From Synergistetes bacterium HGW-Synergistetes-1 (GTDB taxonomy: Bacteria; Synergistota; Synergistia; Synergistales; Synergistaceae), in contig PGXO01000001.1 in the NCBI GenBank assembly GCA_002839185.1, positions 248,001 to 312,000 on the forward strand: a stretch of DNA of 64,000 nucleotides, in the 5' to 3' direction. Made by a program: the position numbers and the translations under genes. Below, piece after piece: positions 4,627 through 58,116 of the stretch. The notes below the pieces were generated by a model. The model saw only the letters and a program-made list of their open reading frames with translations. It searched no databases and was not told the origin of the DNA. How positions within the stretch are numbered: position 1 is the stretch's first letter; each line of letters starts with the position of its first letter.

Positions 4627-7489
4627 CCCCGTACCCCCTGACATCTTCATTCTCCGGATCGTCTCTGTATCCTTCCCTTTTCCGGCATATAACAAAGAAT
4701 TCACAGAACCTGCACATGGCAGATTCATAGTTTGCAGGAAAGAGACCGGCTTTTAACGACTCAGCCATATCTTCCATAGTCTTTTCTGCAAGGTCAAGAA
4801 ATTCTTCAATTCGCTTTCTCGGCTTTCTGGAGCGGTAGGCACTTCGCATTGTATCAGAGGCAAAATATCCATAAAAAGATGCGTCTTTGTGTCCTATCCA
4901 CCCGTAGCCGAGAGGCCTTTCTCCCGTCGTTTTGCTTATTATTACAGAGTATGCCGCCAGCTGCAGTTCGTTTCGGTGGTCATATGATCTGTTGGACTTG
5001 TAGTCGATCACAACAAAACCATCATTGAAAAAATCCACCCTGTCAGCCCGCCCTTTGAATATGACACCATCTGCCGCGTATTCAGGAAGTTTGTATTCAA
5101 GCTCTGTTCCTGTCCGTTTTTTAAGCTCCTCAGAGCATTCGATACTATCCAGAAGTTCCGCGACAGAGCCCATCTGCTTCATCAGGCTGTCAGCATGCCT
5201 TTCCAGCCTCGGATCAGTCAGCAGCTCGGGATAATGGTCGGATGAAGCTTTTTTCCACTCTTCTTTTGAAAGCAGAGTAAAGCTCCGCGGTGATGAAAGG
5301 TACTCTCTCCAAGAACGCTCCCACACTGTATGAAGAAGGGAACCGGCCCTAAGCGGGTCAAATAGTTCAATGTCGTGGTCCTGAAGCTTTATGTTGATCC
5401 TGCACCAGTATCTGTAAGGGCATTCCTTCCATTCATCGATGTTGCTCAATGAGACAGCAAGAACGTCAGAGGCTGATCCCTCCCCCGTTCTGGGAAAATC
5501 GCCCCTCTCTTTTTTCCCGGCAGAAAGAGGAACTTCAGCTCCGCTGAACCAAAAACAGCCGTCAGGGGGGATTACATCAGAGGGGTTATATTCTATGCTT
5601 CCTACCCTCTCCCATCCGCCCGGTCCCTTTTGAGGAATGAAAAGAGGATCTATAAACTGTGATCCTCCAAGAGGGCGTCCGCTCTGATCAGTAAGGGAAC
5701 GTGTTATGACAGTCCCTTCAAGGGAAGTTGCTATAAGCCTCCTGAAGAGGCCTTCCTTCTGCTCTCTTTCTTCATGCAGCTCGGGGATATGAGAAAGATG
5801 TTCTCCGGCCCCATCATCAGAAGGCTGGTTTTCATTGAACCTGATCTTGCTTTCGTTATCAAGGAGGGGGGATTCCCGGAGCTTCCCCGGCCATGTGCTG
5901 TAGTCTGCGTCCGTCATTATCCAGTACCTGTGAGTCGTAAGCACTGGAGGAAGCCCTGCGTATACCGTCAGGGAACGGCTTTGCGGCAGCCTTATCGGAA
6001 GGGTGGCATTCTTTCCCCACTCATGTATGTAGCTGACAGCTTCCAAGCCCTTCAGCAGCACCTTTGAAGCAGGCCCGATATCCTTGCTCATGTCTTCAAG
6101 TATTTCTATCTTTTGCTCAAGCTCTTTGATCGAGGATGATGTGTCTTTCAAAATTTCGTCCAGGCTTGGAGTGGTATCAATAAAGCTGCCTACTGCACTC
6201 TGGAGATCAAGGCCATTGATAAATTCAAGCCACATCTTCAGTATCTCGGGAGGGGTGCCTCCCGCTGAAAACTGCCTGCACAGCTTTTCAAGATTTTCAA
6301 ATGTAAGCAGGGACCTTCCCCTGAGCAGAGCCTTCCACGCCCTGCTGCCTTCCGGGAAGGCTGAAAGGGCTGAAGAGAGGTCAAACTCGGGGGATCTTAA
6401 CAGGGGGTTCGCAAGCAGGAATGCCGTACTCTCTCTTTCCCAGCCGGAGGCGAAGGCGTTCCATATTGCTTTGGGCAGTTCTCCTAATAGTGTATCTGCA
6501 ACAGTACCCCTTAGCTGAACATTAAATGGAATTTTATACCTCTGAAGAGAATTTTCGATCAGTGAGAGGTGCTGCGTGGTCACCATTATTCCGATATCAC
6601 CGAAATCATTTATAGATCCCAATGCCGAAAAGGCCCCTATGCCATGCGCCCAGAGGGCTGTCTCCCTTGCTGCCGCATCAAACTGCATCTGGCAGTCTCC
6701 CGCTTTCAGCTCAAATATCCTTGAGTGCCATTTAGGCCTCTCCCTATACTCTGCTCCAACCTGAACGATCGAATCATGCAATGAATCCAGACCGGTTTCG
6801 GGCAGTAAAAATATAGTTTTAGTAACTTCTTGAAGTTTTTTAATGAGTTTTGACTGGCTTCCGGTGAAAGTAAGAAAGCCTACCAGTACAAAGGTAAGAT
6901 CTGAAACAGCCTTAACAGATGCTTCTCTGCACAAGCATTCTCTGATCAGCGAAGCCATCTGTGCACTGTCAGCAATGCTATTTTCCTTAAGGTATTCAAG
7001 ATAATCGGAATAAAGCCTCAGAAGTATGTACCCGGGAGATGCTTCCGGCGGGCCGTTTTCCTGAAAAAGTCTTTCCCTGAGGTCGTCCGGTGATATACCC
7101 TCTGTCAGAAGTTCTCTTATGTTATTACCGAGCACCTCTGAAAATCCCCTGTGAAAGACTCCTTCGGGCAGGTCTTTTCTAAGGTCTCCCTCTTCTTCCA
7201 GAAATTTATATAAAATGTAAGAAATGATCAAGTCATGGTCTGGGGGGTCAATTACACGCTTTGGGATGAGCTGTGAGGACTGGTAGACCTCCCGGTAGAG
7301 GTCGCTCCATGTCCATACGACAGGCCTGGCCCCGAAAAATGAACCCCTGCGGGAAATAAGGTGCAGGATGGCGTCTTTGTCCAGCCCTGACGGGACTATA
7401 AAGACAGTCTTGCTTCCGCCGTCCTTATAGAGCCGGGAAAGCCTCTCTTCTTTCTCTGATATGTTGTAATAAGTTTCAACTATGGGCAT
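4616..7489 (-). CDS. addB: AddB-like nuclease subunit
   Basis: 957-aa partner of AddA. The N-terminal helicase-like part lacks a usable Walker A (no GKT/GKS where AddB or AddA would have one), so it is probably a structural, recognition-type domain. The C-terminal PD-(D/E)XK nuclease is intact: GRADRVDF (about 815) and VIDYKSN (about 829). A cysteine near 688 and a C-x2-C-x5-C cluster near 925 match the [4Fe-4S] site known for AddB nucleases. The gene starts inside the end of the metallohydrolase gene (14-base overlap) and overlaps addA by 11 bases, so the three are co-translated. Confidence 0.88.
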   Translation of the reverse strand: MPIVETYYNISEKEERLSRLYKDGGSKTVFIVPSGLDKDAILHLISRRGSFFGARPVVWTWSDLYREVYQSSQLIPKRVIDPPDHDLIISYILYKFLEEEGDLRKDLPEGVFHRGFSEVLGNNIRELLTEGISPDDLRERLFQENGPPEASPGYILLRLYSDYLEYLKENSIADSAQMASLIRECLCREASVKAVSDLTFVLVGFLTFTGSQSKLIKKLQEVTKTIFLLPETGLDSLHDSIVQVGAEYRERPKWHSRIFELKAGDCQMQFDAAARETALWAHGIGAFSALGSINDFGDIGIMVTTQHLSLIENSLQRYKIPFNVQLRGTVADTLLGELPKAIWNAFASGWERESTAFLLANPLLRSPEFDLSSALSAFPEGSRAWKALLRGRSLLTFENLEKLCRQFSAGGTPPEILKMWLEFINGLDLQSAVGSFIDTTPSLDEILKDTSSSIKELEQKIEILEDMSKDIGPASKVLLKGLEAVSYIHEWGKNATLPIRLPQSRSLTVYAGLPPVLTTHRYWIMTDADYSTWPGKLRESPLLDNESKIRFNENQPSDDGAGEHLSHIPELHEEREQKEGLFRRLIATSLEGTVITRSLTDQSGRPLGGSQFIDPLFIPQKGPGGWERVGSIEYNPSDVIPPDGCFWFSGAEVPLSAGKKERGDFPRTGEGSASDVLAVSLSNIDEWKECPYRYWCRINIKLQDHDIELFDPLRAGSLLHTVWERSWREYLSSPRSFTLLSKEEWKKASSDHYPELLTDPRLERHADSLMKQMGSVAELLDSIECSEELKKRTGTELEYKLPEYAADGVIFKGRADRVDFFNDGFVVIDYKSNRSYDHRNELQLAAYSVIISKTTGERPLGYGWIGHKDASFYGYFASDTMRSAYRSRKPRKRIEEFLDLAEKTMEDMAESLKAGLFPANYESAMCRFCEFFVICRKREGYRDDPENEDVRGYGDDS

Positions 7490-53490: not shown

Positions 53491-53515
53491 AAATACGTAA
53501 GGAGGAATTTTGACG

Positions 53516-53863
53516 ATGCGTAAGATCGTGAAGTCACTTTTAACATTGATGATCGTGATCCTTATCTGCAGTCCTGTATTTGCACATCCCGCTGAAAAAA
53601 TGGAGCTTAAATGGGATGAAACGGCATCTGCTCTGGATGTCTCGATCGTCCATCCGGTCAAAAATACTGTAAAACACTATATAAGCAAGATAGTGGTCTC
53701 TGTCGGTGGAAAGGTAATGGAAGAGAGGGTCCTCAAATCCCAGACCGATCCAAAAACAGAACAGGCAGTATTTGAGATCAAAGATCTTAAAAAAGGATCA
53801 AAGATAGAGGTAGAGGCGACCTGCAACGTATTTGGAAAACTTAAGGGAAGCATAGTGATCTAA
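53516..53863 (+). CDS. Exported desulfoferrodoxin/superoxide-reductase-like protein with altered metal site
   Basis: 115 aa. Signal peptide (hydrophobic 8-22, cleavage near VFAHP). The mature part follows the superoxide reductase fold: IVHPVKNTVKHYISKIVV matches the HPxxxxHxI segment with two iron-ligand His, and VEATCNVFGKLKG matches CNxHG, the Cys kept but the ligand His replaced by Phe. The N-terminal Glu/His ligands are not obvious. It may bind a metal differently or act as a redox-inactive relative. AAGGAGG precedes it. Terminator at 53888-53920 ends the operon. Confidence 0.7.
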   Translation: MRKIVKSLLTLMIVILICSPVFAHPAEKMELKWDETASALDVSIVHPVKNTVKHYISKIVVSVGGKVMEERVLKSQTDPKTEQAVFEIKDLKKGSKIEVEATCNVFGKLKGSIVI

Positions 53864-56205: not shown

Positions 56206-56766
56206 ATGTCAACAACAGAAGAATTCATGGTCTATCTTACCGATCAACTGAGAGACGCCGGCATAATAACTTACAGGAAAATGTTCGGCGAATATGCTAT
56301 TTACTGCGATTCCAAAGTTATTGGACTGGTCTGTGACGGGCAGTTTTTTCTTAAAAAAACAGATGCCGGACGTAGGCTTCTTAAAGAAGTATGCGAGGCT
56401 CCTGCGTATAATGGTGCAAAACCCTCATTTCTGATAACATCCACTGACGACAGGGAGTATCTGACAAAACTTGTCAGGGCGACCTGCAGTGAATTGCCTT
56501 TTCCCAAACAAAAAAAGAAAAAGGTAAAAAATAACTGTCACAACGTGGAGTATGTCTGCTACTGTTCAAAGGTAACAGAAAAAATGATCGCTGAAGCAGT
56601 CAGGGATGGAGCCGACTCGCCGGAAAAGGTGATTGCAGCTACAGGCGCTATGAAAAACAGCAACTGCAAAGTCAACAATCCTAAGGGTACCTGATGCTAC
56701 GGTGAAATAGTCAGGGTGTTTGGAAAACACCTTATAAAACAGGAAGCAAATAAAAGCAAAGAATAA
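56206..56766 (+). CDS. TfoX N-terminal domain fused to a BFD-like [2Fe-2S] domain; candidate selenoprotein (in-frame TGA at 56692-56694)
   Basis: Residues 1-105 are a TfoX N-terminal-like domain (TYRKMFGEYAIYCDSKVIG). A KKKKVKNN linker leads to a BFD-like cysteine domain: YVCYCSKVTEKMIAEAVRDG, then TGAMKNSNCKVNNPKGT, where TGA interrupts the frame. Translation beyond it reads CYGEIVRVFGKHL and ends at TAA 56764, continuing the family sequence, whose usual form is NPKGTCC. The TGA thus replaces the first Cys of the pair. A SECIS-like hairpin follows at 56715-56731, and the flavoprotein ribosome site overlaps the distal TAA. With readthrough 186 aa; without, 162. Start by ATG after GGGGTGG; a GTG four codons upstream is possible. 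Confidence 0.75.
56715..56731 (+). promoter_or_regulatory. SECIS-like hairpin downstream of the in-frame TGA
   Basis: Perfect 7-bp stem GGTGTTT / AAACACC with apical loop GGA. The loop begins 28 bases after the TGA and has G in its first positions, fitting the rules for bacterial selenocysteine insertion elements (apical loop about 16-37 bases after UGA, G among the first two loop bases). Confidence 0.5.
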
Positions 56767-56778
56767 GGAGTGATAATG

Positions 56779-57405
56779 ATGAAAGTAATTGCCCTGAACG
56801 GAAGCCCGAGAAAAGAGGGAAACACTGCTTACGCCATTAAGCTGATGGCAGAAGAGCTGAGAAAAGATGGTATAGAAACCGAGATAATAGAGATAGGTCA
56901 TTTAGCAATTCATGGCTGCACAGGATGCGGCTACTGCACAAATTCAGAAAAGAACGAATGTGTTTTCAAAGATGATCCTGTCAACGAAACGGCTGCAAAG
57001 ATACGCGGGGCCGACGGACTAATCCTGGCCTCCCCCACTTACTACGCCGGGATAGCCGGTACGATGAAATCATTCCTGGACAGGCTGTTCTATTCAAGTT
57101 CCAGACATTTCAAATACAAGGTTGCGACCGCGGTAACAGCCGTAAGGCGTACCGGAGGAATAGACACGCTGCACCAGCTCAACAACTATCTGAGCCTTGC
57201 ACAGACTGTAACCCCGCCTTCCCAATACTGGACCGTCGTATACGGAAGATCGGAGGGAGAGATGATGCAGGATCTGGAGGGCATGCAGACCATCCGTAAA
57301 AATGCAGGGGCTATGGCATGGCTGATAAAGGTCATCAATGAGGGCAAAAAGACCATTCCTCTGCCTGCTGAGGAAAAGCGAGTCTTTACTAATTTCATCC
57401 GCTAG
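56779..57405 (+). CDS. Iron-sulfur flavoprotein / NADPH-dependent FMN reductase family
   Basis: 208 aa. Flavodoxin-like fold with the FMN loop ALNGSPRKEGNTAYA (about 5-19) and the ISF-type cysteine motif HGCTGCGYCTNSEKNEC (about 46-62), which in this family binds a [4Fe-4S] cluster in some members. ASPTYYAGI forms the second flavin loop. AAGGAG overlaps the stop codon of the upstream readthrough gene, suggesting coupling of the two. Likely an electron-transfer partner in oxidative-stress handling; exact role unknown. Confidence 0.9.
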   Translation: MKVIALNGSPRKEGNTAYAIKLMAEELRKDGIETEIIEIGHLAIHGCTGCGYCTNSEKNECVFKDDPVNETAAKIRGADGLILASPTYYAGIAGTMKSFLDRLFYSSSRHFKYKVATAVTAVRRTGGIDTLHQLNNYLSLAQTVTPPSQYWTVVYGRSEGEMMQDLEGMQTIRKNAGAMAWLIKVINEGKKTIPLPAEEKRVFTNFIR

Positions 57406-57426: not shown

Positions 57427-58116
57427 ATGGACAAAGATAAAATGAAGAATAACTATTATGCGCAAAGTCTAAACGCCAAAATGTTATGGCAGGTCTATGA
57501 CACTGCGATACCAAGGATATCCCGGTACCTTGAACAAGAGATAGCCTTTGTACGTGACAGGCTAAAAAAAAATGACGACGTGCTTGAGCTGGCCGCCGGT
57601 TATGGCCGGATCATGAAGGAGCTCGCGCCATTTGTGAACAGTATTACCGGCATAGAGATATCCGGCAACAACGTAAGTTTTGGGGAGGAATATCTTAGTG
57701 GCATCCCAAATACAGAGTTACTGACGCTGGATGTCCACGATATTGACTACTGCAACCGTTTCGACGCTGTGCTATGCCTCCAGAACGGACTTTCCGCTGT
57801 AAGGGCAGATGTCCCGGAGGCTTTTGCAGTAAAAGTAATAAAGGCTCTGAAAAAAGGCGGCAAAGCCTATTTCAGCACTTATCACCCAAATTTCTGGGAA
57901 CAGAGGGTCGCGTGGTTTCAGGAACAGTCAAGGAAAGGGCTGATCGGAGAGCTCGACATGGAGAAGACAAAAAATGGAGTCATCATTTGCAAAGACGGCT
58001 TCCGTGCCACCACACACTCCATAGCCGACCTTGAAAAAATCGGGCGCTCTACGAACTGTCACTGGCAGATATTTGAAGTGGACGATTCAAGCATATTCCT
58101 AGTCATTGAGAAATAG
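57427..58116 (+). CDS. Class I SAM-dependent methyltransferase
   Basis: 229 aa. SAM-binding motif I DVLELAAGYGRIMKELAPF (about 48-66), acidic end of beta-2 in ITGIEISGNN, motif near LLTLDVHDIDY, and LKKGGKAYFSTYHP (about 138-151) as post-motif. The acceptor is not predictable; the family includes many small-molecule methyltransferases. No strong ribosome site is seen before the ATG; it follows the flavoprotein gene by 21 bases and probably shares its transcript. Confidence 0.85.
   Translation: MDKDKMKNNYYAQSLNAKMLWQVYDTAIPRISRYLEQEIAFVRDRLKKNDDVLELAAGYGRIMKELAPFVNSITGIEISGNNVSFGEEYLSGIPNTELLTLDVHDIDYCNRFDAVLCLQNGLSAVRADVPEAFAVKVIKALKKGGKAYFSTYHPNFWEQRVAWFQEQSRKGLIGELDMEKTKNGVIICKDGFRATTHSIADLEKIGRSTNCHWQIFEVDDSSIFLVIEK

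Follow-up and report, generated by a model that had tools for sequence, protein, structure and literature searches.

A TfoX_N/[2Fe-2S] fusion gene with an in-frame TGA, predicted to encode a selenoprotein of the CopZ-like GxUC family in one Synergistaceae genus

A two-domain gene with an in-frame TGA

The window (the whole 64-kb stretch of DNA that we analyzed) contains, at 56206-56766 on the forward strand, a frame of 162 codons, a TGA (56692..56694), 23 further codons and a TAA. Its start codon, ATG 56206, is closely preceded by a G-rich ribosome site, and GTG 56194 is a possible alternative start. Read through the TGA, the frame would encode a complete selenoprotein of 186 residues with selenocysteine (Sec) at position 163. 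The Shine-Dalgarno sequence of the next gene (AAGGAG) overlaps the distal TAA, as the initial annotation of this DNA had observed.

To characterize the product, we performed a Pfam search, which bore out the earlier description of a TfoX/[2Fe-2S] fusion: TfoX_N (PF04993) matched residues 13-65 (E = 1.6e-11) and Fer2_BFD (PF04324) matched residues 116-151 (E = 1.8e-7). In the AlphaFold2 model (mean pLDDT 77.6), two domains are separated by a lysine-rich linker predicted to be disordered (56509..56544, forward strand; residues 102-113). The first is the TfoX_N domain (56206..56508, forward strand; residues ~1-101), delimited by PF04993, the AlphaFold2 domain and a weak match to 2od0. The second is a CopZ-like, BFD-type [2Fe-2S] domain (56545..56757, forward strand), identified by PF04324, NF045877, a match to 2hu9 and the alignment column counts given below. 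Its cysteine pattern is C118-x-C120 ... C154 ... U163-C164, and the motif at the predicted Sec site is GTUC. The last helix of the model begins at residue 164, with Sec163 immediately before it. Foldseek placed 2od0, a Vibrio protein, at the top (E = 3.5e-3) and Bfd structures next (E = 0.06), both weak matches. An Rfam scan of 56206-56766 returned only sub-threshold chance matches.

Genomic neighborhood

Directly downstream is a gene for an NADPH-dependent FMN reductase-like flavoprotein (56770..57405, forward strand; PF03358, E = 3.9e-35) with the cysteine motif CxxCxxCx7C, which resembles iron-sulfur flavoproteins. The flavoprotein gene also adjoins the fusion gene in four related loci (L127, L129, L130 and L131), making it a candidate electron partner. 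It is retained at the Sec loci and absent after the Cys-encoding gene of one congener (G012), so the partnership is not fixed. A class I SAM methyltransferase identified by Pfam (57427..58116, forward strand) is a conserved neighbor, found also in L127, L128 and L131. Elsewhere in the window, 53510-53863 encodes a small desulfoferrodoxin-like protein that falls just below the Pfam cut-off, and L127 and L131 have a similar gene upstream of the locus.

Homology past the TGA

To assess how much an open frame beyond the TGA means, we used the window as a control: 30 of the 70 TGA-ended ORFs of at least 100 amino acids stay open for at least 23 more codons. Open-frame length was therefore dropped as evidence for Sec. 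Since open tails of 23 codons are common by chance, it is the homology past the TGA, rather than openness, that carries weight. The tail raises the NF045877 score from 51.8 to 61.5 bits, in agreement with the earlier remark that these 23 codons carry family-like sequence. The best solved relative is 2hu9, the N-terminal domain of A. fulgidus CopZ (E = 1.4e-9), which aligns through the site with CC.

Homologues carry either CC or UC at this site. Position 163 is C in 40, U in 8 and another residue or a gap in 5 of 53 distinct homologues, and position 164 is C in 52 of the 53. The TGA thus falls, as first proposed, where most relatives have the leading Cys of a CC pair, and the outcome that would have spoken against Sec, homologues ending here without the CC motif, did not appear; Cys itself is not invariant at 163. 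The in-frame UGA aligns with Cys in one fusion orthologue (L072) and about 40 distinct homologues, and the eight distinct sequences with U at 163 come from five Synergistota genera. Four of these genera, other than that of the fusion, have stand-alone homologues with U at the identical site (G041, G004, G174 and G077). In G174, two genes closely precede the stand-alone GxUC homologue (L134, about 4650-4850), one resembling a metal-transporting P-type ATPase and the other an arsenate reductase/phosphatase, both judged by eye from their translations; this neighborhood is a hint of a metal-related role.

These column counts also bear on what the selenocysteine would do. The initial annotation had placed Sec either next to a [2Fe-2S] ligand or as a ligand itself, and the first of these fares better: because 164 is a near-invariant Cys and 163 varies among C, U and other residues, a place for Sec next to the cluster is more likely than one among its ligands. 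The cluster ligands of 2hu9 are Cys75, Cys77, Cys109 and Cys119, and Cys164 aligns with the last of these. Ligation by Sec163, with Cys164 left free, is unlikely on these grounds. It gains something from the Csac_0668-type proteins of form 2 (see below), in which the second residue of the pair is Sec (CU), so that the two positions may be partly interchangeable.

Sec, Cys and decaying copies among congeners

The TGA at 56692..56694 is retained in L018, L073, L075 and L076, and L072 has TGC. By genome, the TGA is retained in the same-genus G006, G007 and G011, the last with a partial TfoX_N, and in a decayed copy in G009; the same-genus G012 has TGC, giving CC. G012 also has a selB fragment at a contig edge, which points to Sec/Cys exchange among Sec-using relatives. 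The decayed G009 copy (L130, about 4680-4910) has lost the bulk of TfoX_N along with the first two cluster cysteines, indicating that the gene is dispensable; its UGA, tail and hairpin are intact and the flavoprotein gene is still next to it. The L018 record is labelled Spirochaetales bacterium Spiro_01, and its protein is almost identical to that of Synergistaceae UBA1037; either this MAG or the name given to it is probably incorrect.

A bSECIS-like hairpin downstream of the TGA

We identified a bSECIS-like hairpin at 56713..56733 on the forward strand, with a GGA loop at 56722-56724: AGGGTGTTT[GGA]AAACACCTT. The loop begins 28 nt past the UGA, as first noted, and the stem, originally given as 7 bp, has 9 bp including one G-U. 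The published bSECIS model allows a loop of 3-9 nt, a stem of 4-16 bp and a spacing of 16-37 nt, with G in the first two loop positions and MFE <= -7.5 (PMC13188914). Our hairpin lies within all of these limits (loop 3, stem 9, GG, spacing about 27-28 nt, -8.7 kcal/mol), and only 0.85% of 2595 TGA sites in the 64-kb window score as well. Shuffle z-scores were modest (-2.0 for this hairpin, less in orthologues) and we did not rely on them. We also scanned the whole window for further TGA/hairpin candidates, requiring at least 30 codons past the TGA, which put the 56206-56766 gene itself outside the reach of the scan, and found none.

The orthologue hairpins fit the same geometry. In G006 and G011, the 38-nt cores fall short of -7.5 kcal/mol and are unexceptional against shuffles. 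The stem persists in four Sec orthologues, with one terminal C-A in G006, and one of its pairs is G-C, G-U or A-U depending on the orthologue; the Cys orthologue of G012 has lost three pairs. Covariation is thin: the fusion has only four distinct Sec orthologues, and one pair changes on both sides. Given the weaker orthologue energies, the hairpin evidence across orthologues appears good but not overwhelming.

Tail and hairpin together weigh against the UGA being an ordinary stop, in which case the protein would end at residue 162 and the tail would be a relic of a CC-type ancestor. A 162-residue product still matches TfoX_N and Fer2_BFD above cut-off, and the partial deletion of the gene in G009 can also be cited for a stop. 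However, a protein ending there would lack the last helix and, with it, near-invariant Cys164, and several species keep both the hairpin and the tail, CYxxI(V/A)(R/Q)VFGKH; in those species the codon is always UGA, never UAA or UAG, and one species has Cys. We consider an ordinary stop very improbable. A sequencing or assembly error turning TGC or TGT into TGA, for which the Cys codon at the site in G012 might be cited, can be practically dismissed, as the same TGA recurs in separately assembled genomes whose proteins are 70-80% identical, and stand-alone homologues of four other genera have it at this site too.

The Sec machinery of the genome

The source genome (2.17 Mb, 99.9% complete) has all four genes that the initial annotation had named as a check. 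selB scores over its curated cut-off; a SelA-like gene, read from its translation, directly adjoins it (L009, 9481-10917); and tRNA-Sec (selC) has the anticodon TCA. selD is present and itself has an in-frame TGA (L067), with a GGA-loop hairpin, GTCCGGC[GGA]GCTGGAC. Glycine reductase GrdA is found in two copies with in-frame TGA (L140/L141), one of them at a contig end. From this machinery and the TGA-bearing selD and GrdA genes, we consider it very probable that UGA is decoded as Sec in this cell. Genome-wide reassignment of UGA, for example to Trp or Gly, had nothing in its favor and is hardly credible beside this machinery, the 70 of 144 long ORFs that end at TGA, and homologues that carry Cys, not Trp or Gly, at the site.

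The Sec machinery, the CC homologues and the TGA in independent assemblies strongly support the original proposal that this TGA is decoded as selenocysteine. We put the probability of Sec decoding of the UGA in this known domain family at roughly 0.93.

Relation to known families

Reviews list a selenoprotein "(2Fe-2S)-binding protein, CopZ family, form 1, GxUC" (cd10141) and a CU selenoprotein of form 2, Csac_0668 (PMC13188914, PMC9312934). The suggestion of a new selenoprotein type is thus not supported: family and Sec site are already known, and only the TfoX_N fusion looks undescribed. PF04324, the 2hu9 match and GTUC, which fits GxUC, place our protein with form 1, with the same BFD/CopZ-type domain and the same Sec position. 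Here, the domain is fused behind TfoX_N; the example listed for form 1 is WP_245779778.1. The Csac_0668 family (NF045877) has a homologous domain, and the 61.5-bit match spans positions 96-158 of the 161 in the model, covers the domain part only and stays under the cut-off of 190, leaving the protein outside that family. The N-terminal Cys-rich region of the Csac_0668 family is absent here, and Sec is first in the pair (UC) rather than second (CU). The N-terminal domain of A. fulgidus CopZ (2hu9) shares the C-x-C ... C ... CC pattern, with CC in place of UC; CopZ lacks TfoX_N, and the Cu-binding domain that follows in CopZ is absent here. The TfoX/Sxy family shares the N-terminal TfoX_N domain, but where TfoX_C would be expected our protein has the [2Fe-2S] domain. 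TfoX_C (PF04994) was not found anywhere in the genome, and with TfoX_N only the protein does not have the TfoX_N + TfoX_C composition of a TfoX/Sxy competence regulator.

To determine how widespread the fusion is, we searched other genomes. No other TfoX-BFD fusion was found outside the genus in 53 Synergistaceae genomes (full query), in 188 Synergistota genomes (domain query, considering upstream frames among the matches listed), or in 391 Clostridia genomes, plasmids and IMG/VR. In our sample, the fusion is confined to one Synergistaceae genus. In the literature searched, we found no paper linking TfoX with selenoproteins, and the fusion of TfoX_N to a Sec [2Fe-2S] domain appears undescribed.

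Two further observations concern related proteins. A Csac_0668-type CC protein is identical or nearly so in Prevotella, Porphyromonas, Peptoniphilus, Gordonibacter, Veillonella and others (L033-L063, e.g. L033 3001-3186; L158 1722-2201) and occurs on the conjugative plasmid pAPRE01 too, which suggests recent cross-phylum spread on a mobile element. The source genome also has a second BFD-like gene (L095; G000 C7:98660-98812) that has lost several cluster cysteines.

A possible redox module

We propose that SelB and tRNA-Sec read UGA codon 163 as Sec with the help of the bSECIS hairpin that immediately follows it. In the resulting protein of 186 residues, a flexible lysine-rich linker would join the TfoX N-terminal domain to the CopZ-type BFD [2Fe-2S] domain. 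By homology, the cluster is predicted to be bound through C118, C120, C154 and C164. Sec163 would adjoin Cys164, the probable fourth ligand, where the last helix begins, and its low-pKa selenol beside the cluster may pass electrons or handle a metal or oxidant. The adjacent iron-sulfur flavoprotein-like FMN reductase may reduce the [2Fe-2S]/Sec domain, and TfoX_N may be a docking or regulatory domain. Electron transfer, its partner and the role of TfoX are what we infer from this arrangement, and we give the redox-module function, taken alone, about even odds. The iron-sulfur domain of A. fulgidus CopZ mediates Cu(II) reduction according to a review (PMC7558416), which makes metal or oxidant reduction by the Sec/[2Fe-2S] module a reasonable guess. 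It is doubtful that Sec beside or replacing a [2Fe-2S] ligand tunes a redox-sensing TfoX_N protein, which would be a selenium-dependent switch of an uncharacterized kind.

The gene represents a new domain architecture for a catalogued but uncharacterized selenoprotein family, and standard gene callers will cut its product at residue 162. With Sec orthologues, Cys orthologues and a decaying copy in one genus, it offers a natural set for studying why a [2Fe-2S] cluster should have selenium next to it.
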